Of a stretch of 64,000 nt of DNA, positions 2,494-48,298 are shown piece after piece. The stretch comes from Ariolimax columbianus. Taxonomy: Eukaryota > Mollusca > Gastropoda > Stylommatophora > Arionidae. The position numbers were made by a program, and so were the translations under genes. The DNA lies in assembly GCA_036924085.1 (NCBI GenBank), contig JAVGWX010000011.1:32238386-32302385 (forward strand). The letters run 5' to 3'. Position 1 is the stretch's first letter, and each line of letters begins with the position of its first letter. A model generated the notes under the pieces. That model did no database searches and had not been told where the DNA came from. It was given only the letters and a program-made list of their open reading frames with translations.

Positions 2494-4599
2494 TTCTTCT
2501 TCTTCTTCTTCTGCGTACACAGTCAGACAGTAACCATTATTTTTTCGAAAAAAGCGGCGGTCATCCTGAGACTCTCGCCACTACCATAGAGCTTGTCTTG
2601 CAGTTCCACTGGCAATGGCCACATCTGCTCTCTCTGATCCTCGTATGTCGGGCAGTTCTGCAGCAGATGTTCAGTGGTCATTTTACCAGTACCGCACGGG
2701 CATTCGTCGGTACACCCTATCTTCAATTTGTTGAATAGGTGGTACCTCAGTCTGTTGTGGCCAGTGCGAAGTCTGAAGACAACGACCTGCTCTCTTCGGT
2801 TCAACTGGTAATAGGCATCGTTTTTTGTGTAACCAGTATGTTCGGTTTCCCATTTGGTCATGTATCTGGCTTTGATAAGCCGTTTTGACTCTTCGTACGT
2901 CATACTGGTATCTGTTTGTGGTAGCCTTGCACCTTCTTTTGCCAGTCTGTCTGCCTCTTCGTTGCCTTGGATGTTGCAGTGTGACGGAACCCACTGTACC
3001 ACTACCCTTTTTGGTGCGGACTGCTGGCACAGTTTGCAGAGTGCTGCTCTTAAGTCATTAAGCTCAGTGTTTTTCTGGCTTTTTAGCGCTGTGACTACGG
3101 CGAGAGCATCTGTCAGCAGGACTATATGGCTCTCATTTTCACTGTGTGTTACCATTTCTTCCACTGCCACCCTCAGTGCCTCTGCCTCCGCTCTGAAATT
3201 GCTTGTGTACTTACCAGTAGCGAATGACAGTGTTATTTTTCTGCCATTTGGTAGGTTCAGGAATCCTCCTGCCCCTCCGTTCTGTGTAGTGTTTGTTACA
3301 GAACCGTCGGTGTATGCATGGGTCCAGTCCATGCTTGGGTAGCTTTTCGTTATGAAGCTTAGGGTAGTGTCTCTCCTTTCTTTTTCAGTCCTGCACTTTT
3401 TGTTTGCAATACCTGGTATAATTTCTACCACCTCTGGAAATATATCCTGCCTCCAAGTAGGTTTTCGTACAGTAGTGATGGGTTTTGGTGTTGTTAGTGC
3501 GTTTATGGGATCTTCGTGCATCTTTGCTTTGGCTATTTCTGCAAAGTTTCTCCGCTTTAGTTTCCCATTTCCCAAATTGTTTAGTCTCTGGTACATTGGA
3601 TGGTCCGTCAGTCTTCGGAGTTTCTCTGACTGCAGCTGGGCTCTGCAGTCTCTTCTATCGGTCATGGATTGCAGTTTTGTAATCTTTTCAAGTTCTACAA
3701 TTGGCGTTGACTTCATGCCACCTGTTATAATTCTCATGGCTTGGTTTTGAAGTTTGTTAACTTTATCGAAGTTCGCCTTCGCTGCTGTTGTCCATGCCGC
3801 AATGCCATACTCAAGAACTGGTCTCACTCTTCCAGTGTACAGTTTCTTTAGTATGCCTTCGTCTGCTCCCCAGCTTGTGCCAGCAAGTTTCCTCATGATC
3901 GCCATTCTTTCTCTGGCTTTCATTCGGTTTCTCTCAATCTGACTTTTCCATGTCATGCGCCGATCAAATGTGACTCCCAGATAGGTTGGGTTGTCGTTTG
4001 GCTGCAGGATTTTGCCATTTAGACTTAATTTGGTACTTTGAGGTTTTAATGAGAGCGAGAATATTGTGCACGTGGTTTTCTCCTCGTTTATTTTGACCAG
4101 CCATGAGTTCGCCCACTCTTCCAGCGATGTTAGGGCCGTCTGCATCCGATTTCTTGCTATGGTGAGATTCTTTTCAGAGGTCCACATAGCCAGATCGTCT
4201 GCAAACATTGAGCTATGGACTCTTCTTGGTATATTCTCTGTAATATCGTTTATATATACCAGGAAGAGTGTGGGTGACAATACTCCCCCTTGGGGTACTC
4301 CCTGCTCGAGTGTCACCTTTTTGCTCATCTGCCCTTGTACTTGGACTCTGGCCGTTCTTTGTTTGAGGTAGTGGTTGATCCACTTGTACATCTTCCCACA
4401 GACATCACTTCTTCTTAGTTTGACTCTAAGTCCATCCTTCCAGACTTTGTCAAATGCCTTTTCCAGATCCACCCAAACAGCTACTGTGTGTTTCTGTGCC
4501 TGGTAGGCATCTTCTATCTCCTGGGCTATGAGGATGACCTGGTCCTCAGTGGATCTGTGCTGTCTAAAACCGGCTTGCTGTGGAATTAGTATTCGTTTT
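2494..4599 (-). mobile_element. LINE-A copy 1, 5'-truncated, with target-site duplication
   Basis: The minus-oriented insertion has its 3' end at 2494, where an AGAAGAAG triplet tail is followed by the target. It is 5'-truncated inside the RT domain at about 4599. The direct repeat GGCGGCATCC lies immediately outside both ends (2484-2493 and 4600-4609), a 10-bp target-site duplication. 5' truncation, TSD and a simple 3' tail together are the signature of target-primed reverse transcription. The reading frame is uninterrupted, so this looks like the youngest LINE in the window. Confidence 0.9.
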
Positions 4600-4607
4600 G
4601 GCGGCAT
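2523..4607 (-). CDS. LINE-A RT-RNase H polyprotein, intact but 5'-truncated
   Basis: This frame of 694 codons has no stop or frameshift. RT landmarks are AGFR (residues 12-15), VDLEKAFD (46-53, first catalytic Asp), QGGVLSP (106-112) and FADD (135-138, catalytic pair). A type I RNase H follows, with the acidic set D434 (YTDGS), E474 (FRAEAEA), D500 (LLTDALA) and D553 (GNEEADRLAKEG) plus PSHCNIQGNE. The C-terminus has a Cys/His cluster (CPCGTG...EHLLQNC). RNase H after RT places it in the I/jockey superfamily. The endonuclease and first RT block are lost to truncation, and the apparent start codon and first residues are insertion-boundary sequence rather than a true start. It cannot be autonomous. 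Confidence 0.9.
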   Translation of the reverse strand: MPPKRILIPQQAGFRQHRSTEDQVILIAQEIEDAYQAQKHTVAVWVDLEKAFDKVWKDGLRVKLRRSDVCGKMYKWINHYLKQRTARVQVQGQMSKKVTLEQGVPQGGVLSPTLFLVYINDITENIPRRVHSSMFADDLAMWTSEKNLTIARNRMQTALTSLEEWANSWLVKINEEKTTCTIFSLSLKPQSTKLSLNGKILQPNDNPTYLGVTFDRRMTWKSQIERNRMKARERMAIMRKLAGTSWGADEGILKKLYTGRVRPVLEYGIAAWTTAAKANFDKVNKLQNQAMRIITGGMKSTPIVELEKITKLQSMTDRRDCRAQLQSEKLRRLTDHPMYQRLNNLGNGKLKRRNFAEIAKAKMHEDPINALTTPKPITTVRKPTWRQDIFPEVVEIIPGIANKKCRTEKERRDTTLSFITKSYPSMDWTHAYTDGSVTNTTQNGGAGGFLNLPNGRKITLSFATGKYTSNFRAEAEALRVAVEEMVTHSENESHIVLLTDALAVVTALKSQKNTELNDLRAALCKLCQQSAPKRVVVQWVPSHCNIQGNEEADRLAKEGARLPQTDTSMTYEESKRLIKARYMTKWETEHTGYTKNDAYYQLNRREQVVVFRLRTGHNRLRYHLFNKLKIGCTDECPCGTGKMTTEHLLQNCPTYEDQREQMWPLPVELQDKLYGSGESLRMTAAFFEKIMVTV

Positions 4608-5269: not shown

Positions 5270-6440
5270 AATTGGAACTGTATGTAGAAGAAGAAAAACC
5301 AGATATAATAGGGTCAACAGAATCATGAACATATTAGGATATTGCAGATAGTGAACTTAAAGTAGAGGGATATACAATGTTAAGGAAAGATAGGGTAGTT
5401 GGAGACAAGACTTAAGGGGGGTGGCGTTTTATTATACTGTATAAATTCAGTTAATAAACCGATCAAAGATGATTTATCATGTGATAACAAAAATGTGTGC
5501 TATAGATGTCCATCAAGTCAAAAAGAGGAAGATGAGGAGCTTCTTCTTCTTCGTACGCAGTCAGACAGTAACCATTATTTTTTCGAAAAAAGCGGCGGTC
5601 ATCCTGAGGCTGTCGCCACTGCCATAGAGCTTGTCTTGCAGTTCCACTGGTGATGGCCACATCTGCTCTCTCTGATCCTCGTATGTCGGGCAGTTCTGCA
5701 GCAGATGTTCAGCTGTCATTTTACCAGTACCGCACGGGCATTCGTCGGTACCACCTATCTTCAATTTGTTGAATAAGTGGTACCTCAGTCTATTGTGGCC
5801 AGTGCGAAGTCTGAAGACAACGACCTGCTCTCTTCGGTTCAACTGGTAATAGGCATCGTTTTTGGTGTAACCAGTATGTTCGGTTTCCCATTTGGTCATG
5901 TATCTGGCTTTGATAAGCCGTTTTGACTCTTCGTACGTCAAAGATGATTTATCATCTGGTAACAAAAATAAAAGTGTATGGGGAGAAATAGAAAGTTAGG
6001 GTGAAAAAAAACAGTGATTGGAGTGTGCTATAGATGTTACATCAAGTCAAAAAGAGGAAGATCAGGAGCTGATTAGTAGCATAGCAAAGGCAAGTAAAGG
6101 GAAATTATTATTAATGGGGGATTTCAACTTTCCAGAAATAAAATGGGATATAGCAGAAGCACGTGTAGAGTCAAAACCTTTTCTTAAGTGCATAATTGAC
6201 AATTTTTTTAAATTCAACATGTAGACGCTGCCACCAGAGGCAAAAACACACTCGACCTAGTTTTTACTACAGAGGAAAATATGATTGAAAACGTTACCGT
6301 TGAGGAAATGTTTGGCTTAAGTGACCATCAAATCATCCGTTGGGATCTTATTGCAGGGAAAGAAGTAAACATAAATACACAAACATACGACTACTCTAAG
6401 GCAGATGTTAAGAGGATGAAAGAGGCAGCGCACCACATAA
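5270..6440 (+). pseudogene. CR1L endonuclease region (interrupted)
   Basis: The APE-type endonuclease reads in pieces: 'EGYTMLRKDR', 'GGGVLLYCINS', a degenerate 'GVCYR' block, 'LLLMGDFNFPEIKWD' (about 6108-6150, containing the conserved GDFN) and 'FGLSDHQIIRWDLI' (6310-6350, containing the conserved SDH). These are characteristic of CR1/L2 endonucleases, which nick the target DNA. A LINE-A fragment splits the region at 5539-5940, and part of this domain is duplicated on both sides of that fragment. Confidence 0.8.
5539..5940 (-). mobile_element. LINE-A 3' fragment inserted in CR1L
   Basis: This encodes the last ~125 residues of the LINE-A protein ('MTYEESKRLIKARYMTKWE' through 'EHLLQNC' to 'AAFFEKIMVTV'), nearly identical to copy 1, with a GAAGAAGAAG tail at 5539. 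It is heavily 5'-truncated at about 5940. Both sides carry a related stretch of CR1L endonuclease sequence, AAAGATGATTTATCAT to GAAGAT(G/C)AGGAGC (5465-5538 and 5940-6069). The left copy lacks about 50 bases relative to the right. Confidence 0.85.
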
Positions 6441-8385
6441 TCTGGAAAGATATTATCGTAAGCAGAAACTCATTGCAGAAAGGCAACAATTAAAACAAAT
6501 GAGAAGTAAGGGGACCAACTCAGCATATTAAAACTGCGCAAGAAAAGTTAGAAGAGAAATAAGAAAAGATAAAAGAAGATACATAGTAGAAACATGTAAG
6601 GATATAGAAAACCTACAACAACAAGGCAAAGAAAGAGATGCATTCAAAGCAAAAGAACACTGATAAGGGAATTCCGTCAGGTTCCACATGTCATAAATGA
6701 CGAAGAGGATAACACATTAACAGAAACCAAAGACATACTGAATAGATGGAGAGAGTACTGCAGAACCATGTATGGAGACAGCACAAAGCGCTCAATTACA
6801 ATCCTACCAAAGGATGAGAAAGAACCTGAACCAACATTGGAAGAAGTTCGCTCTGCAATTAAAAGCCTGAAAAAAGGAAAGTCCTCAGAATGCGATGATA
6901 TCCCATCAGAGCTAATACAAGCAGGAGGGGGGAGGGGGGAATGTGCTCGAGTCTATCACAAGCTGTGTAAACAGATATGGCACAGTGCAGATTGGCCAGA
7001 AGCATGGAAGAAATCAATTTATATTCCTCCTCCCAAAAGAGGCAACCTAAGGCTGTGCACGAAAAACCGCGCGAAGTTTATCGCGCTGATCAGCCACGCT
7101 AGCAAGATACTCTTGCGAATCCTGTTAAGAAGGATAAACAAAAAGATTTGAATCTGAAATTCACGTAGTCCAGGTAGGTTTTAGGACAGACAGAGGGACC
7201 CGGAACCACAAATTCAATTTAAGGAATATCTATGAAAAATGTGGAGCGTTTAATGTAGACCTGTACACATGTTTCATTGATTACACTAAGGCCTTCGGCA
7301 CCGTAAAACATCCAAATCTGTGGAGAATCATGAAGGAAATGGGATTTCCTTTGCACATAGTCCATCTCATTGAAACATCAATGATCAACAAGCCGCTGTC
7401 CGAGTATCTGAGCAAACATCAGATTGGTTTGCAGTACAAAAGGGAGCCCGACAGGGACGTATCCTCTCACCGTATCTGTACAACATATATGCGGAATGTA
7501 TAATGAGAAATGTTCGAGAAGACGAGAACATTGAAAGTTTTGACCCATTTACGATTGGGAGGGGAGGGGGGGGGGTACGAGATTCCTGAATTTCGATATG
7601 CAGATGACACAGTGATACTATCAAGAAGTGCAGAAGGGCTAGAGCAGCTACTTTCTGCCGTTAATGGACATAGTAAAGATCAAAACCTGTTCATAAACAT
7701 AAATAAAACAAAGATAATGACCACCGACAAAACACAATGTCAGCATAGATTTACAGTGGGTGGTGAGGAAATGGATCAGGTCACACATTTTGAATACCTG
7801 GGCTCCAGAGCTGACAAAAATGGTGACTGCTAGAAAGAAATCAGAAAAAGACTAGCTATGGCAATGCAGAGACTGAACAGTCTGAAGAAATTATGGCAGG
7901 GCACCAAGAAAATGATAAAAGTAAGTCTTGAGAGCCAGTCGTTTTCCTGTGGCAGCTTATGACTGTGAATCATGGACGATTGCCAAAACTTCTAGACAAA
8001 GACTCAAATCTTTCAAGTCAAAATGTTACAGAAAGATCCTCAGAATACCCTGGACAGAGAAAAAAAACAAATGCAGACATTCGGTACGAGTTGAGCATGG
8101 AGGAGAACTGGTTTATCAATTCCATTTTGGCTTGAAAATGCAAGTACTTTGGTCACATCAAGAGACACAACGGTCTTGAGAGAACGGTGATGGAAGATAT
8201 GGTGCCAGGCAAAAGAAGAAGGGGTAGACCAAGAAGACGTTGGCACCAAGATATCCAGGAATGCCTGAGAATGACTGTGGCGGAGGCTGGTGTTTTGGTA
8301 AGGGAACGAGTTTCCTTCAGACTGACTGTGATGGGAGCGACGTTCTACAAAGGACATGCTACATGATGAAGATGATGATTGTCGT
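6440..8385 (+). mobile_element. RTE (BovB-like) copy nested in CR1L
   Basis: The RT reads through several frames: 'EEVRSAIKSLKKGKSSECDD' (6840-6900), 'AEAWKK'-like 'PEAWKKSIYIPPPK', 'ISHASKILLRILLRRI', 'DYTKAF', then 'FRYADDTVILSRSAEGLEQLL' (about 7586-7650, catalytic YADD). Then comes the C-terminal 'YDCESWTI' and the FGH region. The 3' end is GCTACATGATGAAGATGATGATT at about 8358-8380. RTE elements typically end in short tandem repeats such as this. The endonuclease is absent, and the copy carries frameshifts and a G-rich expansion near 7555-7575. CR1L coding resumes directly after it. Confidence 0.8.
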
Positions 8386-12830: not shown

Positions 12831-12944
12831 CTAATCGTATTTAGAATCAAGTGTTGCACAATGTGTAATGAAGTCCTATGGAAACAAATCGTCAAAACGA
12901 GACTTGAAAAACAATCAAACTAATTGAACAATTTGAACGTAGCA

Positions 12945-13290
12945 TCACGTACTAGGCGGATAAGCCAACGGTTCGAGGTGAGGGATTACGGCCGAACGCC
13001 TCTAAGCCAAAAATCCCGCCCAAAAGCAGCCCAGCACGAATGCAAAGGGAGGCTTCGACATGGTGGGGACCTCGGGGTCACGCTCCAGCCCCGCCCGGTC
13101 AAGCCGCAGAATGAGGTCTCTGCCGTCCGCTGATAAAAGTGGGCGGGAAGCTGCTCGATATTCACCCCATACGGCGATGAGGAATGAAATCATTTGTAGA
13201 AGACTTAGTTCTCGGTCGAGTGCCCTAAGCAGTAGATCAGCTACCTCACTGCGAACTGCTGAGACTCAACCCTTGACCATGTCCGCTCCC
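12945..13290 (+). pseudogene. 28S rRNA 3'-end fragment, first copy
   Basis: The sequence TGAGGGATTACGGCCGAACG followed by CCTCTAAGCC and ATCCCGCCC is the near-universal 3'-terminal region of metazoan 28S. Further on, AGCAGTAGATCAGCTACCTC and GAGACTCAACCCTTGACCAT correspond to the extreme 3' end of 28S. Point changes (ACTAGGCGGATAAGCC for ACTTGGCTGATAAGCC) mark it as non-functional. Confidence 0.85.
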
Positions 13291-13349
13291 TAGGCGGACA
13301 ACATCTCCGAGCAAGACTAGGCTTGTCACCTGGTCAAATGCACTATTTC

Positions 13350-13535
13350 GAGAGGAATCACAGGTCGCTGATATTTGGTCCACGTGCTTGGCTGATAAGC
13401 TACCATCTGAGGGATTACGGCCGAACGCCTCTAAGCCAGAATCCCGCCCAAAATCTCAGCACCGCTGAGATGGGAGGCTACGACATGGCTGGGGCTTGTG
13501 TCCCGGCCCGATCGAGCCGCAGGAATGCACCTGGT
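13350..13535 (+). pseudogene. 28S rRNA 3'-end fragment, second copy
   Basis: TCGAGAGGAATCACAGGTCG, GGTCCACGTGCTTGGCTGAT, then GATTACGGCCGAACGCCTCT and CAGAATCCCGCCC repeat the same 28S region. This copy starts about 35 bases further upstream in 28S than the first. It therefore follows in tandem after a short 3'ETS-like stretch (13291-13349), then diverges into the body of the retroelement. Confidence 0.85.
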
Positions 13536-14087
13536 AAAATGCACTCCTTCCTCGCTCTTTGCATCTGTCTGCTATCAGTCATTCCAATGGACGCAGAAGA
13601 GATGCAGTCCAGCGGACACTGCACCTCTTGTCCTATGGTGGCAAGCTCCCGGGTGGCGGGGAATGCTAGGCGTACCATCACTGCAGATGAGCCGAGAAAA
13701 TAGAGCGAGCAAAAAGATACCTCACTCATATGCATATGCTACGTTTCTGGCAGGACGTGACGATCCTGGGAAAAAGTCACACTGGACTGCCTCTCTTCCG
13801 GGATAGTACAAACTAGTACATAGTCCATCATATCATTGCCAAACGCTATAGACACGAGTAGGGAAGACTCGATAGTCCTGCATGACAACTTCCCAAGAGA
13901 GACAACTCTGACCAAAAACAACTGCTGCCTTGCAGTTAGGCTGGGGACAGCCAAAAGCTAAGGAGGGCAACCCTACAGAAACGCCTGTTGAAATTGGATG
14001 CACTGAGCCACTGGCTAACAAATTAAATCAGTGCAACGTAAATATCGCTGTAAACAGCGTACGATGAAGAAGAAGAAGAACGTAGCA

Positions 14088-31619: not shown

Positions 31620-34094
31620 ACTATGGAAGTTAGTCAGAGCCATGAATGACGAAACACCGTCAAATAAACAAATTACCATCAAGCAGGGCGAGAACTTGCT
31701 CACTGGAAAAAAACTAGCAAACGCCTTTGCTGAACACTATGCCAAAGCGAACCACATAGATGTCCCTGCAGATAGGCATACGGACATAAATGAAGAGCAA
31801 AAGAGGCATGACAACATCAATATGGCACCAGAAGAGCATATGATGGCAAAACTTACAATGAACGAAATGGAAGAGGCCATGAGAACATTAAAGAAAAGGA
31901 AATCTCCCGGAAAAGACGGGATAACAAACGAAATGCTGATGGGGCTGGGCCAAACAGCAAAAAGGAAACTGCTATCAGTCCTGAACCAAAGCTGAAAAGG
32001 GGGAATTGTACCCCAGGCATGGAAAGACGCAGTACTGGTACCAGTACCAAAGAAAGGAAAAGATAAAACAGATCCAAATGGACACATGCCTATCAGCCTA
32101 CTGAGCTGTGTCGGCAAACTGATGGAACGTATGATAAACACCAGACTGATGTGGCATCTGGAAGAAAAACGGATACTAATTCCACAGCAAGCCGGATTTA
32201 GACAGCACAGATCAACTGAGGATCAGGTCATCCTCATAGCCCAGGAAATAGAAGATGCCTACCAGGAACAGAAACACAAAGTTGCGGTTTGGGTGGACCT
32301 GGAAAAGGCATTTGACAAAGTCTGGAAAGATGGACTTAGAGTCAAGCTAAGAAGAAGTGATGTTTGTGGGAAAATGTACAAGTGGATCAACCACTACCTC
32401 AAAAACAGAACGGCCAGAGTACAAATACAAGGGCAGATGAGCAAAAAGGTGACACTTGAGCAGGGAGTATCCCAAGGGGGAGTACTGTCACCCACACTCT
32501 TCCTGGTGTATATAAATGACATTACAGAGAATATACCAAGAAGAGTTCATAGCTCAATGTTTGCAGACGATCTGGCAATGTGGACCTCTGAAAAGAATCT
32601 CACCATAGCAAGAAATCGGATGCAGCATGCCCTAACATCGCTGGAAGAGTGGCCGAACTCATATCTGTTCAAAATAAACGAGGACAAACCCACATGTACA
32701 TTATTCTCGCTAACAATCAAACTACAAAAAACCAAATTAAGTCTAAACGGCAAATACCTTCAGCCAAACGACAACCCAAACTATCTGGGAGTCACATTTG
32801 ATCGGCGCATGACATGAAAAAGTCAGATCGAGAGAAACCGAATGAGAGCCAGAGAAAGAATAGCAATCATGAGGAAACTTGCTGGCACAAGCTGGGCAGC
32901 AAACGAAAGTATACTAAAGAAACTGTACACTGGAAGAGTGAGACCAGTTCTCGAGTATGGCATTGCGGCATGGACAACAGCAGCAAAGGCAAACTTCGAT
33001 AAAGTTAGCAAACTCCAAAACCAAGCCATGAGAGTTATAACAGGAGGCATGAAGTCAACGCCAATTGTAGAACTTGAAAAGATTACAAAACTACAATCCA
33101 TGACCGACAGAAGAGACTGCAGAGCCCAGCTGCAATCAGAGAAACTCGGAAGACTGATTAACCATCCAATGCACCAGAGACTAAACAATTTCGGAAATGA
33201 GAAGCAAAAGCGAAGAAACTTTGCAGAAATAGCCAAAGCAAAGATGCACGAAGACCCTAAGAACGCACTAACCACACCAAAACCCATCCACACTGTATGA
33301 AAACCTAGCTGGAGGCAGCATATTTTTCCAGAGGTGGTAGAAAATATACCAGGTATTGGAAACAAAAACTACCAGACTGAAAAAGAAAGAAGAGATACTA
33401 CCCTGAGTTACATAACAGTAAACTACCCAAGCATGGACTGGACCCATGCATACACCGACGGCTCCGTAACAAATACAACACAGAACGGAAGGGCAGGAGC
33501 ATTTCTGAACCTACCAAATGGCAGAGAAATAACACTGTCATTTGCTACTGGAAAATACACAAGCAATTTCAGAGCGGAAGCAGAAGCACTGAGGGCGGCA
33601 GTGGAAGAAATGGCGACAGGTAAGAGAAATGAAAGCCACATAGTCTTGCTTACAGATGCTCCAGCACTAAAAAGCCAGAAAAATACTGAACTTAATGATT
33701 TAAGAGCAGTACTCTGTCAACTATGACAGCAGGCTGCACCAAAAAGGTTAGTGGTGCAGTGGGTTCCATCCCACTGCAACATCTAAGGCAACGAGGAGGC
33801 AGACAGACTGGCAAAAGAAGGTGCAAAACTAACACAACTAGATATCAGTATGACTTACGAAGAGTCAAAACGGCTCATTAGAGCTAGATTCATGACCAAA
33901 TGGGAAACCGAACATACTGGCTACACCAAAAACGATGCCTATTACCAGTTGAACAGAAGAGAGCAGGTCGTGGTCTTCAGACTTCGCACTGGCCACAATA
34001 GACTGAGGTACCATCTATTCAACAAATTGAAGATAGGTGGCACCGACGAATACCCGTGTGGTTCCGGGAAAATGACCGGGAAAATGACCTTCGA
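31620..34094 (+). mobile_element. LINE-A copy, plus strand, EN-RT linker to C-terminus
   Basis: It starts in the linker ('MNDETPSNKQITIKQGENLL', 'RTLKKRKSPGKDGITNEMLM'). RT runs through 'MPISLLSCVGKLMERM', 'VDLEKAFDKVW' (32295-32330), 'SQGGVLSPTLF' and 'SSMFADDLAMW' (about 32550-32585). The connector follows, then RNase H at 33430-33850 ('MDWTHAYTDGSVTN', 'FRAEAEALRAAVEEM', 'LLTDAPA'). Frameshifts or stops occur at 31995, 32817, 33300, 33726 and 33786. The C-terminal Cys/His region is cut after GTTCCGGGAAAATGACC, and a duplicated GGGAAAATGACC leads into an inverted 5' leader. Confidence 0.9.
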
Positions 34095-34141
34095 TGCGTG
34101 AGGCCCGGCACTCTCGCTGCCTGGCGGGATTCCACAGGATG
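34095..34141 (-). mobile_element. LINE-A 5' leader fragment, inverted
   Basis: The complement of GGCGGGATTCCACAGGATGC and the adjoining GCCCGGCACTCTCGCTGCC matches the leader of the plus-strand LINE-A at about 43036-43085. It abuts the right TSD, so it marks the 5' edge of the composite insertion. Confidence 0.75.
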
Positions 34142-35029: not shown

Positions 35030-35440
35030 TGTCAACTATCATCTGCTGCCTTCCAGTTTGGCTGGGACAGTCAAAGGCTATGGACGCAGTCCTAGAATAT
35101 GACTGCAATTATCCACTTGTTACTTTGTTTACATGATTACATGGCTGATACAGTACCCGTCGGTGACTGAACGTCTTTTCGTACTGTGACTAGCAAACCA
35201 TGCGCAGCGAACAATCTTCAAGAAATCGTTTTGACTAGCGGGCTGAACAAGGTGTAGATAGCTGATGGAGAGTCCTCTCAGCGTAATTGGGTATGTCAAC
35301 CCAGGCATGTCAAGTCTGGCCTCGACGGATTGGGCGTAAGAGTGAAAAAGTTTATCTAACGGTCTTTTCAAATATAATCCTTTTAAGTGGTGTAGTGTTC
35401 GACTGCCTGAGATCGCCGCCATTTCTCAAAGGACATTTTC
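35030..35440 (+). repeat. Dispersed repeat J, copy 1
   Basis: CTGCTGCCTTCCAGTTTGGC, GCTGGGACAGTCAAAGGCTA, GGCTGATACAGTACCCG and AACGTCTTTTCG recur in the same order and orientation at 57300-57570. A shorter related stretch (CTGCTGCCTTGCAG..GGCTGGGGACAGCC) is inside the 28S-headed unit (about 13920-13955) and at 42870-42905. No open frame or function recognised. Confidence 0.6.
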
Positions 35441-38366: not shown

Positions 38367-39524
38367 AGGCAGACAGAGAGATGAATTTAAGGCAATAAGA
38401 ACACTGACAAAGGAGTTCCGTCCGGTCCCACATGTCATAAATGACGAAGAGGATAACACATTAACAGAAACCAAAGACATACTGAATAGATGGAGAGAGT
38501 ACTGCAGAACCATGTATGGAGATAGCACAAAGCACTCGGTAACAATAATACCAAAGGATGAGAAAGAACCTGAACCAACATTGGAAGAAGTACGCTCTGC
38601 AATTAAAAGCCTGAAAAAGGGAAAGTCCCCAGGATGCGATGAAATCCAAGCAGAGCTAATACAAGCAAGAGGGGAGGCATATGCTCGAGTCTATCACAAG
38701 CTGTGCAAACAGATATGGCACAGTGCAGAGTGGCGAGAAGCATGGAAAAAATCAATTTATATTCCCCTCCCTAAAAAAAGCAACCTGAAACTGTGCACGA
38801 ACTACTGAGCTACCGCGCTGATCAGCCACGCTAGCAAGATACTTTTGCGAATCCTATTAAGAAGAATAGAGAAAAGGTTTGAATCTGAAATCATGTAGTC
38901 CAGGCAGGTTTCAGGAAAGACAGAGTAACCAGGGATCACATATTCAATTCAAGGAATATCTACGAAAAATGTAGAGATTTTAATGTAGACCTGTACACAT
39001 ATTTCATTGATTACACCAAGGCATTCGACACGGTAAAACATCCAAATTTGTGGAGAATCATGAATGAAATGGGGTTTCCCTTGCATATATTCCATCTCAT
39101 TGAAACATTATATCGAGATCAACAAGCCGCCGTCCGAGTATCTGGGCAAACATCAGATTGGTTTGCAGTACAAAAGGGAGTCCGACATGGATGTATCCTC
39201 TTACCTTATCTTGTACAACATATATGCGGAATGTATAATGAGAAATGTTCGAGAAGACGATGACATTGAAATTTACGACCTATTTACGATTGAGGGGTAC
39301 GAGATTCCAGAGTTACGATACGCAGATGACACAGTGATACTATCAAGAAGTGCAAAAGGGCTAGAGCAGCTACTTTCAGCCGTTAATGGACATAGTAAAG
39401 ATCAAAACCTGTTCATAAACATAAATAAAACAAAGATAATGACCACCGACAAAACACAGTGTCAGCATAAATTTACAGTGGGTGGTGAGGAAATATATCA
39501 GGTCACACATTTTGAATATATGGG
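38205..39524 (+). mobile_element. RTE copy truncated at an rDNA junction
   Basis: The RT linker 'LTKEFRPVPHVINDEEDNTL' and 'EVRSAIKSLKKGKSPGCDEI' (38400-38650) is followed by 'EAWKKSIYIPLPKK', 'FIDYTKAFD' (39006-39032, catalytic Asp), 'VQKGVRHGCIL' and 'ELRYADDTVILSRSAKGLEQ' (39308-39367, catalytic YADD). Then comes 'HFEYMG' at about 39510-39524, where homology stops mid-domain. A (TA)n run lies at 38326-38364 inside the 5' part. Two or three frameshifts are present. Confidence 0.85.
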
Positions 39525-40153
39525 CATCTGGGGTAGTTGTCTCGCCGCAGCGACTCAATTTCAACCAGTGTTCGTAAAGCGATCTCAGTCCCGCAGGCGG
39601 AGCGATAGCGCGGGCTTGCGGAAAACGCTCGCCTGCCTTTCCCCGTAGAGCGAATTGGGTGCGGTTTGTTGTAGCGTCTCCTCCACCGAGGTGCGCTCGT
39701 CTGGTCCGTATCAGGAAACGTGGTCCGTCCGTGGTGATTTATCTAAGGCTTATAGCAGAGCTCGACAGTACGTCTCGCTGGTGGTCCGACTCTCGCAAAG
39801 AGCTTGTGACCGGCAAATGGAAAGCAGGAATTTTGCCTGAAGGCCCTGTGTTTTCCTCGGGAGAAGGGCAGGCTGGCAGGCCAAATTGTCTCTAGTCCAA
39901 GTGAAATTCATCGCCGAGGTCGTTGGGATCCGTTCTGCACAGAGCGCTGCCATCCCTCCTCGAGCGAGCCCGGTCGGTCGATCGTCTGGTGCGTGTAGGA
40001 GGCCCCGTGTCAGGCGGTCCTAGGTCGACGGAGTGAGGGACAGGTGGAACAACCGTCCGTCCGTCCCGTCAGTCGGTCCCTGCGGCCGTCCCAGCGAGGC
40101 TTTTGACACACCCTTCCTCCCTTCCTGTGTTCTGTACGTACGTCTCCGACAGA
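39525..40153 (+). other. 5' external transcribed spacer-like rDNA
   Basis: A markedly GC-rich block lies between the RTE breakpoint and the 18S start. It has pyrimidine-rich and TCGGTC/GTCCGTCC-type motifs (for example AACCGTCCGTCCGTCCCGTC) quite unlike the flanking AT-rich intron. Its composition and its position directly upstream of the 18S start make a 5'ETS origin the simplest reading. It cannot be proven without a reference rDNA unit. Confidence 0.65.
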
Positions 40154-41415
40154 TATCTGGTTGATCCTGCCAGTAGTCATATGCTTGTCTTAAAGATTAA
40201 ACCATACTAAGTTCACACTGTCTCACGGTGAAACCGCGAATGGCTCATTAAATCAGTCGAGGTTCCTTAGATGACACGATCCTACTTGGATAACTGTGGC
40301 AATTCTAGAGCTAATACATGCTTACCAAGCTCCGACCCTCGTGGAAAGAGCGCTTTTATTAGTTCAAACCCAATCGTCGTTTCCCCTCGCGGGGTTGCGG
40401 CGTCCCCACTGGTGACTCTGGATAACTTTGTGCTGATCGCATGGCCTCATGTGCCGGCGACGCATCTTTCAAATATCTGCCCTATCAAATGTCGATGATA
40501 CGTGACATGCCTACCATGTTTGTAACGGGTAACGGGGAATCAGGGTTCGATTCCGGAGAGGGAACATGAGAAACGGCTACCACATCCAAGGAAGGCAGCA
40601 GGCGCGCAACTTACCCACTACCGGCACGGGGAGGTAGTGACGAAAAATAACAATACGGGACTCTTTCGAGGCCCCGTAATTGGAATGAGTACACTTTAAA
40701 CCCTTTAACGAGGATCTATTGGTGGGCAAGTCTGGTGCCAGCAGCCGCAGTAATTCCAGCTCCAATAGCGTATATTAAAGTGGTTGCAGTTAAAAAGCTC
40801 GTAGTTGGATCTCAGGCGCAGGCGGGCGGTCCGGTTCACTGCCCGTTGTCTCCTGCCCTACCGTCTGCCGGCTCTCTCACACGGGTGCTCTTCATTGTGC
40901 GTCCTGGGTGGCCGGCGCGTTTACTTTGAAAAAATTAGAGTGTTTAAAGCAGGCTTCGGCTGCCTGAATAATGGTGCATGGAATAATGGAATAGGACCTC
41001 GGTTCTATTTTGTTAGTTTTTGGAACTGGAGGTAATGATTAACAGGGACAAACGGGGGCATTCGTATTGCAGCGTTAGAGGTGAAATTCTTGGATCGCCG
41101 CAAGACGAGCTACTGCGAAAGCATTTGTCAAGAATGTTTTCATTAATCAAGAATGAAAGTCAGAGGCGCGAAGACGATCAGATACCGTCGTAGTTCTGAC
41201 CATAAACTATGCCGACTAGCGATCCGCAGGAGTTGCTTCGATGACTCTGCCGGCAGCTTCCGGCAAACCAAAGTGTTTGGGTTCCGGGGGAAGTATGGTT
41301 GCAAAGCTGAAATTTAAAGGAATTGACGGAAGGGCACCGCCAGGAGTGGAGCTTGCGACTTAATTTGACTCAACACGGCCAACACTGAAATGATTGACAT
41401 GCCGAGACCACTGTT
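40154..41415 (+). rRNA. 18S rRNA fragment (5' two thirds), pseudogene
   Basis: It opens with TATCTGGTTGATCCTGCCAG, the metazoan 18S 5' end, and runs collinearly through GAAACCGCGAATGGCTCATT, GTGCCAGCAGCCGCAGTAAT, AGAGGTGAAATTCTTGGATC and AAAGGAATTGACGGAAGGGC (41318). Lesions in universally conserved positions show it is not a working gene. The helix near the 5' end has lost about six bases (ACCATACTAAG), the 530-loop has CCGCAGTAA instead of CCGCGGTAA, and GCCACCAGG-type sequence is altered. The last third of 18S is missing, and the sequence passes into a chimeric repeat. The variable regions look molluscan to me. Confidence 0.9.
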
Positions 41416-41692
41416 CTGGGGTCTAATATGGAACTGGTGCTGGATCTAGATCCTCAGAAATATGGGGTATGCCCCCTGTAGCTCGGTCTGTCTGCATCCA
41501 GTGTTCTGACAAGGGAATTGACGGAAGAGCACTATTAGGAGTGGAGCCTGAGGCCTAAATTAACTTAACACGCCAATACTGTAGAATGACTGTCAAAAAG
41601 AGAGCACCTTCGTGGGGTCTAATAGTGAACATGTGCTGGAATTAGACCCTCGAAAATCTGGGGCTACCCTCTAAGTAACTCGATTGTCTCGC

Positions 41693-41726
<34 letters not shown>

Positions 41727-41870
41727 TAACCTGCGGCTTAATTTGACTGGACACGCAAATACTGTAGAACGACTGACAAATCGAGAGCACTACCATTGGG
41801 TCTAATAATGAACGTACGCTGGTATTAGACTCACGGAAGACAAGTCAGCTCTCTAACACTCTAATGAAAG
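41318..41870 (+). repeat. Three degenerate tandem units fusing 18S and 28S segments
   Basis: Units of about 175-195 bp start at 41318, 41512 and 41695 with (A/G)GGAATTGACGGAAG(G/A)GCAC, the conserved 18S core. About 100 bases of 18S follow, ending near GATTGACA/GAGAGCAC. Each unit then switches to sequence resembling 28S CTAATAGGGAACGTGAGCTG followed by GGTTTAGACC, seen here as TCTAATA(A/G)TGAAC..GCTGG..TTAGAC. The same join occurs in all three copies, so the chimera formed first and was then tandemly duplicated. The units have diverged strongly from each other. Confidence 0.75.
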
Positions 41871-41959
41871 AACGCTACGGAAATCGTGTTCAACTCCACA
41901 GAAACCGCAGATTTCAAATACCTGGTCATTGACAAACAAAAGCCCTCAATAAATTCTTC

Positions 41960-42430
41960 TGGCCAAATAGAGAACGGGTGCTGGAAATAGACCATCTGAA
42001 GACAGGTCAGTTTTACCCTACTAATAACAGGGCGTTGCTACGGAAAACCAGCTCATATCGAGAAAAGCCGCAGACACTTTGGTTCACGTACCAGGTTGAT
42101 AAGCCAATGGCGCGAGGCTACCATGTGGCGGATTACGGCCGAACCCTTGTAAGCCGCAATCCCGCCCAAAATCTCAGCACCACTGCAACGGGAGGCTCCT
42201 ACATGCTCGGGACCTGGGGCTTGCGCCCCAGCCCTATCCAGTAGAGCCGCAGTAAGAGGTCCTTGCCGTCCGCCGATCAAAGCAGGCGGACAACTGCTTG
42301 ATACTCACCTTATACGGCGATGGGGTGCGAAACCACCAACACAAGACTTAGTACCTGGTCGGGGTGTCGAAAACAGTAGAGCAGCCACCTCACTGTGAAC
42401 TGTCGAGACTCAACCAATGACCATGAGAGC
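41960..42430 (+). pseudogene. 28S rRNA 3'-end fragment
   Basis: GACAGGTCAGTTTTACCCTA, TTTGGTTCACGTACCAGGTT, GATAAGCCAATGGCGCGAGG, CGGATTACGGCCGAACCC, AATCCCGCCC, then AGTAGAGCAGCCACCTCACT and GAGACTCAACC are the ordered landmarks of the last ~450 bases of 28S rRNA. A conserved stretch around AATCCTGCTCAGTACGAGAG is replaced by unrelated bases, and many point changes are present, so this is a dead copy. Confidence 0.85.
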
Positions 42431-42965
42431 TGTCCGCACACCAGGTGAACAACATCTCTGTGACATTACTAGGCTTGTCCTCTGGCTAAATGCACTTCGG
42501 CTACGATATCTACCTCTGTACGATATCAGCCATATAACTATCATGCTGGACGCAGAAGAGATGCAGACTAGCGGACATTGCACACCTGCCCTACTGTGTC
42601 AACACCCCAGGTGGCGGGGAATGCTAGGCGTACCATCTCTGCATAGAAGCCAAGAAAATAAAGGGAGAAAGAGATACCCCACTCACATGCAAATGGCAGG
42701 ACGTTACGATCCTGGGATACAGACACACTGGACTGCCTCTCTTCCGGGTAAACCAGTCCATCTCATATATCATCTCACATATCATCATTGCACCCTATAG
42801 ACACGAGTAGTGAAGACTCGATAGTCTGGTAAGACAACTTCTATAAGAGAGACAACTCTGATCATAAACAACTGCTGCCTTGCAGATAGGCTGGGGACAG
42901 CCAAAGGCTAAGGAGGGCATCCCTACAGAAACGCCTGTTGAAATCGGATGCACGGGGCCGCAAGC
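42431..42965 (+). repeat. 3'ETS-like / shared body also found in the 28S-headed unit
   Basis: TGGACGCAGAAGAGATGCAG, GGTGGCGGGGAATGCTAGGC, CACACTGGACTGCCTCTCTT, AACTGCTGCCTTGCAGATAG and CTACAGAAACGCCTGTTGAA match 13570-14040 in order. It follows a 28S 3' end in both places, so it is either the downstream rDNA spacer or part of a retroelement that includes 28S sequence. Here it leads directly into the LINE-A leader instead of a (GAA)n tail. Confidence 0.75.
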
Positions 42966-45900
42966 CTAACAAAACAGTGCAACGTAAATCGCAGCATGAT
43001 GACAGTACAACCGATTAGAAAAACGCATGGCGCTCATCCTGCGGAGTCCCGCCAGGCAGCGATAGTGCCGGGCCTCATGCCTCGAAGGGGCCCACCCTTG
43101 ACTACTGGTGGTCACCCACCCATGTGTTGTGGAGTCAAGGCACATGGCTATGGGGCAACTTCTATTGATCAAAACCTCAAGACCCTCAAAATACTACAGT
43201 GGAATGCGGAGGGAGTCATTAACCAAAAACTTTCCCTAACACATCATCTGCATGAAGGTAAGATTGACGTGGCATGTATCCAGGAAACGCACCTCAACAA
43301 TAATCATAAATTCTCAATCAGATAGAGAAGGCCACAAAGGAGGGGTCCTGATACTGACCAGAAACTGCATACCGAGTAGCGCGGTATCTGTCAATCACAC
43401 CGGACAAGCAGAAATTGTAGGAGTTAACATAATGGCTCAAGAGACGAAGCTCCGCATTTTCAATCTGTACGGACCACCAAATAGAGACCTATCGCTCTCG
43501 AGTATGGAGGTCAGAGACTCCAACTGCATAGTAGTTGGAGATTTCAACAGCCACTCGGCGAGACGGGGATACTCTGACACAGACAGCAGAGGTGACGAAG
43601 TGGAAGATTTGGGAGATAGATGCAAATCTCTCCCTAATCAATAGGCCGGATGATAGCCCTAGCTTCTATTCAAGAACATGGCATACCACCTCCACTCCAG
43701 ATTTGGCCTTCTCCACACAGGACATACACCATAAAATAGACCGCCAGGTGCTAAACCAACTGGCAAGTAGCGACCACAGGCCGATCAGGCTAACCATTGA
43801 CATGGAAGTAGGCCCACAGGAAACAAAACCGCTCCCACGTTGGAATTACAAACGAGCCGACTGGGACAGATTTGCAATCCTGACAGATGGGCTGTGTGAA
43901 ACCATCAACACACGAAACACCAAAATGAAGCCTATGGTGGAGATCCTAAGCAAGGCAATAATGCAAGCCACCACTGAAACCATCCCAAGAGGAGCTAGGA
44001 AAAACTATAAGCCCTACTGGAATGATGAGTTGCAGAAAGTGGAAGATGCAGGAACAATTGCTAGGAACATGGCAGAGCGAGAAAAATCCATGGAGGCAAA
44101 CATCGCCCTCAAAGCCGCCACGGCGAAGTACAAACACACTCTCAAGCAAACAGCAAGAGAAAGCTGGAAAAATAAAACGGAAAGTCTAAACCTGGACAAA
44201 GACGGGAACAAGCTATGGAAGCTTGTCAAATAAACAAATTACTATCAAGCAGGGCGAGAACTTGATCACAGGTAAGAAAGCCGCAAACGCCTTTGTCGAT
44301 CACTTTGCCAGAGCAAACCACATCGAGGTCCCTGCAGATAAGCAGACATTAGCGAAGAGCTAAAGGGACACGAAAACATGAATACGGCTCCTGAAGAGCA
44401 CATGATGGCCAAACTAACAATGCGCGAAATGGAAGAGGCTATGAGAACACTAAAGAAAAGGAAATCTCCCGGAAAAGGCGGGATAACAAACGAAATGCTG
44501 ATGGGGCTGGGCCAAACCGCGAAGAAGAAACTGCTATCGGTCCTGAACCAAAGCTGGAAAAGGGGAATTGTACCACAGGCATGGAAAGATGCAATACTGG
44601 TACCAGTACCAAAAACAGGAAAGGACAAAACAGATCCAAATGGATACAGGCCCATAAGCCTACTGAGCTGTGTCGGCAAGCTGATGGAACGGATGATAAA
44701 CACCAGACTGATGTGGCATCTGGAACAAAAACGAATACTAATTCCACAGCAAGCCGGCTTTAGACAGCACAGATCCACTGAGGACCAGGTCATTCTCATA
44801 GCCCAGAAGATAGAAGATGCCTACCAGGCACAGAAACACACAGTAGCTGTTTGGGTGGATCTGGAAAAAGAATTTGACAAAGTCTGGAAAAATGGACTTA
44901 GAGTCAAGCTAAGAAGAAGTGATGTTTGTGGAAAGATGTACAAGTGGATCAACCACTACCTCAAACAAAGAACGGCCAGAGTCCAAGTACAAGGGCAGAT
45001 GAGCAAAAAGGTGACACTCGAGCAGGGAGTACCCCAAGGGGGAGTACTGTCACCCACACTCTTCCTGGTATATATAAACGATATTACAGAGAATATACCA
45101 AGAAGAGTCCATAGCTCAATGTTTGCAGACGATCTGGCTATGTGGACCTCTGAAAAGAATCTCACCATAGCAAGAAATCGGATGCAGACGGCCTTAACAT
45201 CGCTGGAAGAGTGGGCGAACTCATGGCTGGTCAAAATAAACGAGGAGAAAACCACATGCACAATATTCTCGCTTTCATTAAAACCCCAAAGTACCAAATT
45301 AAGTCTAAATGGCAAATTCCTACAGCCAAACGACAAATTAACCTATCTGGGAGTCACATTTGATCAGCGCATGACATGGGAAAGTCAGATTGAGAGAAAC
45401 CGAATGAAAGCCAGAGAAAGAATGGCAATCATGAGGAAACTTGCTGGCACAAGCTGGGGAGCAGACGAAGGCATACTAAAGAAACTGTACACTGGAAGAG
45501 TGAGACCAGTTCTCGAGTATGGCATTGCGGCATGGACAACAGCAGGCGAACTTCGATAAAGTTAACAAACTTCAAAACCAAGCCATGAGAATTATAACAG
45601 GTGGCATGAAGTCAACGCCAATTGTAGAACTTGAAAAGATTATAAAACTGCAATCCATGACCGATAGAAGAGACTGCAGAGCCCAGCTGCAGTCAGAGAA
45701 ACTCCGAAGACTGACCGACCATCCAATGCACCAGAGACTAAACAATTTGGGAAATGGGAAACTAAAGCGGAGAAACTTTGCAGAAATAGCCAAGGCAAAA
45801 ATGCACGAAGATCCCATAAACGCACTAACAACACCAAAACCCATCACTACTGTACGAAAACCTACCTGGAGGCAGGATATATTTCCAGAGGTGGTAGAAA

Positions 45901-46008
45901 ATATACCAGGTATTGCAAACAAAAACTGCCAGACTGAAAAAGAAAGGAGAGATACTACCCTAAGCTTCATAACGAAAAGCAACCCAAGCATGGACTGGAC
46001 CCATGCAA
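42966..46008 (+). mobile_element. LINE-A copy with leader, EN and RT; 3'-truncated
   Basis: The most complete LINE-A copy at the 5' side. Endonuclease: 'LKILQWNAEGVINQKLSLTH', 'IDVACIQETHLNNNHKFSIR', 'GVLILTRNCIPSSA', 'IVVGDFNSHSARRGYSD' (conserved GDFN) and 'LNQLASSDHRPIRLTID' (conserved SDH). The linker follows. RT lies in one frame at 44378-45559 with 'PNGYRPISLLSCVGKLMERM', 'VDLEKEFDKVW' (KAFD changed to KEFD), 'PQGGVLSPTLF' and 'FADDLAMW'. A short deletion near 45545 shifts the frame. Coding ends at 'MDWTHA', the first residues of RNase H, where LINE-G begins. Confidence 0.9.
44378..45559 (+). CDS. LINE-A reverse transcriptase, long open frame
   Basis: About 393 codons, open from the end of the EN-RT linker ('MREMEEAMRTLKKRKSPGKG') through the RT palm (QQAGFRQHRSTEDQ, VDLEKEFD, PQGGVLSP, FADDLAMW) to 'VRPVLEYGIAAWTTA'. 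It is nearly identical to the 2.5-4.6 kb copy where they overlap. The catalytic aspartates of block A and FADD are kept, but Ala of KAFD is Glu. The frame is lost by a small deletion at about 45545 and RNase H is gone, so it is not functional. Confidence 0.8.
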   Translation: MNTAPEEHMMAKLTMREMEEAMRTLKKRKSPGKGGITNEMLMGLGQTAKKKLLSVLNQSWKRGIVPQAWKDAILVPVPKTGKDKTDPNGYRPISLLSCVGKLMERMINTRLMWHLEQKRILIPQQAGFRQHRSTEDQVILIAQKIEDAYQAQKHTVAVWVDLEKEFDKVWKNGLRVKLRRSDVCGKMYKWINHYLKQRTARVQVQGQMSKKVTLEQGVPQGGVLSPTLFLVYINDITENIPRRVHSSMFADDLAMWTSEKNLTIARNRMQTALTSLEEWANSWLVKINEEKTTCTIFSLSLKPQSTKLSLNGKFLQPNDKLTYLGVTFDQRMTWESQIERNRMKARERMAIMRKLAGTSWGADEGILKKLYTGRVRPVLEYGIAAWTTAGELR

Positions 46009-47140
46009 TGGCGTCAAGAAGGGCTGTGCACGAGCCATAACACTCTTTAGCAAAATGTTTGCTTCCATGCTCAACGTTAGCTATCAGGGTTGTAACCAAA
46101 ACAGAGTGGAAATAAAATACACGATTGACGGAAAACTCTTCAATCTCAGGCGGCTGCAAGCACACAGCAAGGTAAAGGACACACCCATCTCAAACTTGCT
46201 TTTTTCTAATGAATGTTCCCTTGCTGCCAGCACCGAAAGAGACAGGCAGACATAAGTGGACAAGTTCTTTACAGCCTGTGACATGTTCGGCTTTACAATT
46301 AATTTAAAAACCCGAGGTTATGTTTCAGCCTGTCCCGAGTGATGCATATCGCCACCCAGATATCAGAGTCAAGAACCAGCTCCTCCAGTCAGCAGACAGC
46401 TTCAATTACCTTGGCAGCACTCTTTCCAGTGAAACTACTTTTGACTGCGAGTTTAGTAACAGAATATCCAAGGCCATTGCTGCCTTTGGGAGGCTGCGCA
46501 ATAGTGTCTGGAATCAGAGGGGTCATAGACGTGATATAAAACTCAAAGTCTACCGAGCTGTAGTGCTCCCACCCTTCTGTATGCCAGTTAGACGTGGCCT
46601 GTGTACAGCAGGCATGCTAGGAAAATAAACCCCTTCTATACTAGGTGCCTCCGTAGATTGTTCAAAATAAAGTGGCAGGATAGGGTACCAGACACTGAGA
46701 TCCTCATAAAGGCAAAAACGCCGAGCATCATCCACACACTGTTGCAGATCAGGTGGGCCGGCCACATCGTGCGCATCCCAAAACAACGGATGAATGGTGA
46801 GCTGAAAATGGCCTGCGCCAAGACGGTGGCCAAAAGAAGAGTTTCAAAGACTCCCTCAAAGTATCTCTGACACGCTTCAGCATCGATGCAAGCGCATGGG
46901 AATGTCTCGCACAGAACCGCAAGGTATGGCGTAGAACTACCTTCATTGGTACCTCCATTGCTGAGGAGCACAGGATCTCCGAAGCACAGTAAAAACGCAC
47001 TTTGCGTCAAGACAAAACAACTGACACTCACATGTTCAATTCTGACATTAAATGCTACGTACGTGGAAGGATTTTCTGTGCCAGAATCGGCCACCTCCGA
47101 ACTCACTTGTGAGGTGCAGCACAACATGTCTGACTGCTGT
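46009..47140 (+). mobile_element. LINE-G RT fragment
   Basis: The opening 'GVKKGCARAITLFSKMFASM' matches the GVKQGC RT block. Next come 'LFNLRRLQAHSKV', a degenerate YADD block ('LLFSNECSLAA'), 'DKFFTACDMFGFTINLKTRG', 'SADSFNYLGSTLSSETTFDC', 'KLKVYRAVVLP', '[20 protein letters not shown]' and '[20 protein letters not shown]'. This is the same superfamily as LINE-D but a different subfamily. YADD is destroyed. It starts at a sharp junction with LINE-A. Confidence 0.75.
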
Positions 47141-47264
47141 TGTCATTGTTGCTTGCGATGGACAGCTATTCTTATTATTCTTACCATCACACAAATATTA
47201 AGGAACGAAACGAAATTCTACTGGAGAATCATAAAATACATTGAGTAAAGAATATAACAAATAA

Positions 47265-47530: not shown

Positions 47531-47978
47531 TATATATATATATATATATACACATACCGCACGTCCACACCCAGCCACCCATGCACACAGGCACGCACAC
47601 ACACAAGCATGAATGCATGTGATACATACATAAATGCATATGATACATACATTACATACAGTACATACATTACATACATAACATACATAAAACACATAAC
47701 ATTCACACCATACACAACATACATAAAATACATAACAAACATAAAATACATAACATACACAACATACACAACATACATAACATACATAACATACACAACA
47801 TACATACTATACACAACATACATAATATACACAACATACATAATATACACAACATACATAAAATACACAACATATACAACATATACAACATATACAACAT
47901 TCACAACATTCACAAGATCCACAAGATTCACAATATACACACACACATATACACACACACATATATTCACACACACAT

Positions 47979-48011
<33 letters not shown>

Positions 48012-48298
48012 TACATATGCACACACACATATGCACACACACATATACACACGCATATACACACACATATACACACACACATACACACATATACACACAC
48101 ATATATACACACACAATATACACACACGCGCGCGAACGCACGCACATACACACACAACATACTCTACAGACAGGACCGACCGACCGACCGACAGACCAAC
48201 ACCGACCGACCGACCGACCGACAGACAGACAGACATACATACATACATACATACATACATACATACATACATACATACATACATACATTCATACATAA
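47531..48298. repeat. Compound simple-repeat block
   Basis: (TA)n at 47531-47551 passes into CATAACATACA/ATACACAACATACA variants (about 47650-47930), then interrupted (AC)n with ATATACACAC (47930-48150), (GACC)n/(CCGA)n (48174-48225) and (ACAT)n (48232-48292). About 770 bp in all. It gives long open frames of Thr/His/Tyr or Cys/Val/Tyr on both strands, which are meaningless. It ends only about 48 bases beyond the 3' splice-donor side of exon B. Confidence 0.95.

Follow-up and report, generated by a model that had tools for sequence, protein, structure and literature searches.

The window analysed here is a 64,000-nucleotide stretch of the Ariolimax columbianus genome (contig JAVGWX010000011.1). 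On its plus strand, two copies of the 10-bp sequence GAACGTAGCA, at 12935-12944 and 14078-14087, exactly bracket the 1,133 bp from 12945 to 14077, as the sequence-only reading of this DNA had reported; from this sequence repeat we take them as the left and right target-site duplications (TSDs). The bracketed element comprises i) a unit derived from the 3' end of 28S rRNA with a post-28S stretch (12945-13344), ii) a second, partly deleted 28S-derived unit (13345-13550), iii) a body (13551-14043), of which 13588-14043 matches 42547-42989 in the leader of a LINE in the same window, and iv) the 3' terminus of LINE-A, ACAGCGTACGATGAAGAAG... (14044-14077), recognised by its tail match to LINE-A copies. 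The left TSD abuts the first base of homology to a second copy at 42084, and the right TSD abuts the GAA tail; because the homology starts at one TSD and the GAA tail lies at the other, the element boundaries are independently supported.

Both 28S 3'-end tracts are genuine, though degenerate. Matches to the Rfam LSU model at 13340-13448 (E 5.8e-5) and 12900-13282 (E 1.7e-4) both fall below the gathering score, the alignment of the latter beginning outside the element. Against a piece of human 28S that is not a database record, the two tracts score 124 and 67 (104/124 and 57/72 identical bases), compared with a shuffle maximum of 33. The 28S end is therefore present twice, as claimed. No tRNA gene was found in the window by ARAGORN.

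Head and body of the element recur at 42084-42496 (74%) and 42547-42989 (81%), in agreement with the claim that the body is repeated in the window; plain rDNA 3'ETS is one possible identity for this body. The 3' end was also correctly described as LINE-A-like: the element terminates ...AACAGCGTACGATGAAGAAG, and its tail ACAGCGTACGATGAAGAAG matches the 3' ends of the LINE-A copies in the window, which on the minus strand read ...GTCTGACTGTGTACGCAGAAGAAG (2494), ...CTGCGTACGAAGAAG (5541), ...GACAGCGTACAGAGAAG (24525) and ...GACAGCATACGAAGAAG (27419). An isolated 46-bp stretch at 35040-35084 is 85% like the body core; it may be what is left of an old copy, or else a domain that the two have in common.

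A dispersed non-autonomous family

We searched the genome (2.29 Gb, 401 contigs) with the body as query. There were 1750 first-look candidates, of which 40 were scored; all 40, among them the copy in the window, matched at 99-100%. In 30 fetched loci the extent of 5' truncation varies, the 3' end is common and the TSDs are private. A single script found TSDs of at least 10 bp at 26 of the 29 loci that it tested; when flanks were swapped between loci as a control, none of 8413 pairs reached 10 bp. The locus left out by the script because of its tail regex (L026, the same as L041) has a 13-bp TSD. The three loci for which the script gave no 10-bp TSD were L021, L023 and L029; by eye, 13 of 14 flank bases match at L029 and there is a duplication of about 8 bp at L023 (the same as L040). 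Of the 28 fetched copies that were aligned, 27 differ from the majority sequence by no more than about 1% across 795 nt and one (L003) is 7% off, although the best-scoring copies had been chosen and the family ages are therefore biased young. The element at 12945-14077 is thus a member of a young dispersed family, and the assembly search proposed in the sequence-only reading returned the dispersed copies with a common 3' end and private TSDs that would establish one.

These features also bear on the idea that ordinary rDNA or intergenic spacer fragments were scattered by DNA duplication, or that the element is an assembly artefact. The rRNA pieces are colinear with the rDNA unit, as this idea would have it, but individual TSDs, variable 5' truncation and a common LINE tail at many places make it scarcely credible.

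Among 14 copies that were extended, eight begin with one and the same 5' end, ATCTGGGG; within this group L037, L039 and L043 have lost or gained internal sequence. The TSDs of seven of the eight are 11-13 bp long and end at the first base of ATCTGGGG. The full-length non-autonomous unit is ~3.53 kb (3529 bp in L033) and reads, in order, ~635 bp of 5'ETS, 18S nt 1-~1210, scrambled 18S/28S, two 28S 3' ends, the body and a LINE tail consisting of ~30 bp of the LINE-A 3' end; Rfam places SSU at 4-1116 and LSU at 3005-3399 of the L033 unit. When the 3-kb left flanks of these eight copies and of the LINE in the window were compared, there were two matches (L031/L035 and L031/L043). The statement that the element opens within 28S is accordingly right for the start of this copy at 12945 but wrong for the head of the family, since 12945 is one of many 5' truncation points.

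A LINE with the same leader

The second copy in the window is part of a LINE on the plus strand. Its 5'ETS-like leader starts with ATCTGGGG (39525-40153), and is followed by degenerate 18S rRNA nt 1-~1210 (40154-41380), scrambled and tandemly repeated 18S/28S fragments (41381-41952), the 28S 3' end (41953-42431), the post-28S stretch with the body (42432-42989, of which 42547-42989 is homologous to 13588-14043) and the LINE ORF region (42990-46007), which contains endonuclease, reverse transcriptase (RT) and the start of RNase H and is broken, and is cut off at 46007. Head and body (42084-42989) directly precede the endonuclease-RT region. An Exo_endo_phos_2 match at 43535-44233 (E 3e-5) lies below its cut-off, and Pfam RVT_1 and RNase_H were found within 2523-4607, in a 5'-truncated LINE-A copy on the minus strand with RT, RNase H and a GAA tail (2494-4607). 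A further LINE-A copy lies at 31659-34077 on the plus strand. The element type thus has the endonuclease, RT and RNase H of a LINE, and there are protein relatives with all three among those listed. Among the 120 relatives listed for 2523-4607, identity reaches 53% near full length and 58-66% over about half; those with names are mostly from gastropods (Batillaria, Littorina, Elysia), and one is labelled as a Solemya gill symbiont.

Several neighbouring sequences are of separate interest. The LINE-like repeat at 39002-39525, which the rRNA-led LINE interrupts and which is broken where that LINE starts, also occurs at 54920-55441 and 7272-7803. After the LINE copy at 31659-34077, an inverted piece of the LINE 5' ORF (34088-34141, 91% to 43035-43088) perhaps reflects an inversion at the time of insertion. 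The broken LINE is followed at 46008-47180 by what is, by eye, a different LINE-like coding remnant, and at 47622-48297 there is a long microsatellite-like array whose ORFs, present on either strand, are probably not genes.

The 18S of the window LINE, used as a query, gave 2121 candidates, and all 40 of the 40 scored matched at 93-100%, again with the window's own included. This query needed 18S from its start, so near-full-length copies are enriched, and because the LINE copies were sampled via their 18S the counts refer to 18S-bearing copies. LINE ORF sequence, 82-98% identical to that of the window LINE, lies where it is expected in 11 of 11 copies sampled from these 40 matches, and in eight of the 11 the body is joined to it; the pieces from L063-L065 start past the body and contain ORF only. 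The 5' ends of 38 of the 40 were probed: 26 start exactly with ATCTGGGGTAG, three do so with 1-3 mismatches, and L103 starts with a form of ATCTGGGGTAG that is diverged (by eye), giving 30 of the 38. Two others (L070, L075) match from 2-6 nt later and L071 from ~60 nt later, and no start was seen for L067, L073, L088, L096 and L097. Left flanks were compared for 36 of the 38, two being too short, and gave one 34-bp match. One further LINE-like copy, on C158 (L053, L054), starts at the same base, ATCTGGGG, inside a satellite-like repeat; it was read to the post-28S stretch, where it is 91% LINE-like.

The sequence-only reading had proposed an rRNA-headed SINE family mobilised by LINE-A. Part of this stands, i.e. 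the copies are dispersed, have individual TSDs and were moved by the LINE whose 3' terminus they carry; the 28S head does not, as the full leader begins at ATCTGGGG and is 5'ETS-like sequence followed by 18S. As in SINEs, there is a 3' end in common with a partner LINE, TSDs and dispersal, but the head is 5'ETS-like sequence with 18S in a 3.5-kb unit and not a small RNA gene. We reject a 28S-headed SINE as the full description, given the 5'ETS/18S leader and the joins between body and LINE ORF. The suggestion that LINE-A mobilised such a SINE family and that the LINE took over its head could draw on the 28S tract and the LINE tail with TSDs. The body is, however, joined directly to the ORF with no SINE tail between them (in the window copy and eight of the 11 sampled) and the full-length units are 3.5 kb, which makes this suggestion very improbable. 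The family has the leader and the tail of the LINE and lacks its interior, as a LINE deletion derivative would. It is therefore RIME/SIDE-like, derived by internal deletion from a LINE whose leader resembles pre-rRNA.

Leader divergence and junctions to further rRNA

Two loci have rRNA joined upstream of the element. At L040, about 411 bp of 28S (5275-5685; Rfam 283 bits, LSU 1456-1888) lie directly before ATCTGGGG, and the 28S and element together sit in a LINE-A ORF with a duplication of ~8 bp (by eye). We take the end of this 28S fragment, near LSU model position ~1860, to be possibly the hidden break of protostome 28S. On C9, L104 reads from the flank into ATCTGGGG, 5'ETS and canonical 18S to ~nt 1373, and then into the ATCTGGGG of a LINE. 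The first part is an element-free pre-rRNA copy (Rfam 1276 bits), termed native from its own structure and not from an rDNA array, and it includes 18S after nt 1210, a stretch that is missing from the elements read. The C9 LINE, known from its two ends (L104 and L105), is ~7.4 kb and has a 3' GAA tail followed by AAATCTCAGTTCT, which by eye also occurs at the left; the flank is a tandem repeat, and the 13-bp duplication AAATCTCAGTTCT is less certain for that reason. On the simplest reading, L104/L105 would be a single insertion event: at the 5' end of the LINE RNA, RT would have switched to an element-free pre-rRNA and copied it as far as its own 5' end. The L104 copy, which is the sole independent evidence here on this point, indicates that ATCTGGGG would correspond to the 5' end of pre-rRNA. 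In eight 2.5-kb pieces probed from small contigs, nothing matched either the element or the 28S fragment.

We used the L104 element-free copy as the reference for differences in the leaders, leaving out gap columns. The L033 leader differs at 25/633 positions (3.9%) in the ETS and at 5/1223 (0.4%) in 18S (Fisher p 3e-8; five gap columns excluded in the ETS and 10 in 18S). Of the 25 ETS differences, 15 are clustered within ETS 301-450; with this interval removed, 10/485 compares with 5/1223 (p 0.002). The ETS and 18S values were 4.1 and 0.6% for L031, 4.1 and 1.4% for L035, 4.6 and 0.5% for L041 and 4.0 and 0.7% for L040 (p 4e-4 or less), 18.6 and 4.3% for L037 (p 3e-20), and 6.6 and 2.4% for the window LINE (p 3e-5). 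A leader free of constraint should diverge evenly, so the closer match of 18S suggests that leaders track rDNA, as the first five named here (L033, L031, L035, L041 and L040) seem to do.

This contrast bears on whether the leader is an internal promoter module, i.e. rRNA captured once by template switching that has since driven dispersed LINEs (through Pol II, or through a Pol I promoter downstream of +1). LINE and non-autonomous copies alike begin at ATCTGGGG, as if by inheritance, the 18S junction recurs in the copies read, and L037, L094 and L100-L103 have leader variants, all of which would suit such a module. The 18S of the leader, however, differs less from its canonical counterpart than the ETS does from that of the element-free copy, a pattern not expected of a free-living module, and the 5' end of the leader coincides with that of the element-free pre-rRNA copy; we consider this explanation unlikely, if deserving of some weight.

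Such a contrast between ETS and 18S could also arise if rRNA were recaptured time and again. Under this explanation each LINE RNA gains a new leader from pre-rRNA through a template switch within the 18S homology, and it would fit both the rRNA junctions at the element 5' end in L040 and L104 and the way in which leader 18S tracks canonical 18S. At both junctions, though, the extra rRNA precedes a 5' end that is itself complete, and the leader is left in place, and the junction CACGG|CCAACACTG is identical in the window, L033 and L053 copies and looks inherited; recapture therefore appears distinctly improbable.

Between the window LINE and L033, divergence is 1-7% as far as leader position ~1950 and mostly 21-24% beyond it, with 7% at 3301-3450. 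This step suggests that the front module shares a more recent source than the rest of the leader. The step (~1950) lies ~85 bp past the 18S junction (~1865), and this argues against the simplest model of rDNA residence. By eye, ATCTGGGGT shows a 9-nt similarity to sequence around leader position 1953.

A possible origin in rDNA transcription

At the level of the element, the data comprise its anatomy, a common 5' end, the marks of target-primed reverse transcription (TSDs, 5' truncation and a GAA tail) and two rRNA junctions. Our preferred reading, to which we assign a probability of roughly 0.6, is that 12945-14077 arose as a 5'-truncated retrocopy, its parent being a non-autonomous element in which the leader of a LINE is joined to the last ~30 bp of that LINE, and the leader being a piece of host pre-rRNA that would stem from source copies in 18S genes by Pol I read-through.

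The 18S junction is central to the proposed location of the sources. In L033, 18S breaks after ...TTAATTTGACTCAACACGG and the element continues with CCAACACTG, and the element-free copy reads ...CACGGGAAAACTCACC across the breakpoint; the junction follows AATTT|GACTCAACACGG. At the target sites of the family, counted by eye, TT precedes the TSD in 18/26 and a purine comes first in 26/26, although overlap with the GAA tail favours purines in the latter count. AATTT|GACTCAACACGG resembles these target sites, which suggests a source copy in an 18S gene. In the mechanism that we propose, AATTT|GACTCAACACGG would be the LINE target and the 12 bases before the junction its left TSD; source copies would then sit in 18S genes with the junction AATTT|GACTCAACACGG|element, and their 3' junction is predicted to read GAAGAAG N{0,8} ACTCAACACGGGAA. 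These copies would be read from the rDNA promoter by Pol I read-through into an RNA starting at the Pol I start site, and the LINE protein would insert such RNAs at dispersed TT|GA-like sites.

From these sequences we infer that the source copies reside in rDNA and are under Pol I control. The full-length copies examined are all at dispersed sites, with no rDNA array, Pol I promoter or rDNA-resident copy among them, and transcription by Pol II would be just as compatible with the GAA tail and the ORF. The odds are about even, in our judgement, that 18S rRNA genes are home to a LINE whose endonuclease is apparently non-specific, and that this LINE uses the rDNA promoter to make a hybrid pre-rRNA and seeds dispersed copies with the 5'ETS and the front of 18S.

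Part of this has parallels in Drosophila. PMC3414825 describes R2 and the R2 and R2-R1 SIDEs as non-LTR elements that use rRNA co-transcripts, insert site-specifically into 28S and are cut from the co-transcript by a 5' ribozyme; SIDEs consist of the 5' and 3' ends of the LINE with an internal deletion, and template jumps to small stable RNAs are reported. The elements described here would be similar in riding rRNA transcripts and in their SIDE-type internal deletion, but unlike the 28S-specific elements their copies are dispersed and keep the 5'ETS and the front of 18S. No site-specific 28S insertion of the R2/SIDE type was found in the copies examined, the sites being dispersed, and an Rfam search of the window to E 5 found no ribozyme family, although divergent ribozymes may escape this library.

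Two further systems combine retrotransposition with 28S. MeloSINE and SINE28 are described as retroposon families with 28S 3'-end sequence (PMC7245038, PMC8010984); compared with these, 28S is internal here, the 5' end is 5'ETS with 18S, there is a LINE with the same leader and the unit is 3.5 kb. LINE-1/28S rRNA chimeras in primates are reported as separate insertions (n = 18; PMC13174262). L040 is like them in having 28S joined at the 5' side of the element, but here, in contrast to the chimeras as described there, rRNA is the fixed leader of a large family and the extra junctions come on top of it.

RIME and ingi of trypanosomes are another case in which a non-autonomous element combines both ends of its LINE; we know of no rRNA leader there. 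LINEs of the R7/R8 type insert site-specifically into 18S and would resemble the present LINE in having the 18S gene as the home of source copies, if our interpretation is right; to our knowledge they have no dispersed copies with a pre-rRNA leader. Among the open-licence papers listed, we found no LINE or SINE with a 5'ETS-18S leader and no pre-rRNA leader in a dispersed LINE. In viral contigs, one search gave a single pattern match without a relative and another gave no pattern match.

If the proposed origin is correct, a LINE would depend on RNA polymerase I although its targeting is not specific to rDNA: the rRNA transcription unit would supply its leader, its insertions would lie outside rDNA, and it would spawn a non-autonomous partner with the same leader. 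Such an origin touches on how an ORF can be translated from a Pol I transcript and on how source copies persist under rDNA homogenisation, and the junctions make template switching onto rRNA visible at base resolution. The dispersed copies would in that event be dated snapshots of the host rDNA spacer, and such ETS 'fossils' could be used to date rDNA evolution.

The leaders of L037, L094 and L100-L103 contain a variant, probably older 5'ETS and are possible records of past rDNA spacer; over the first 300 bp, L037 is ~23% different from L033.
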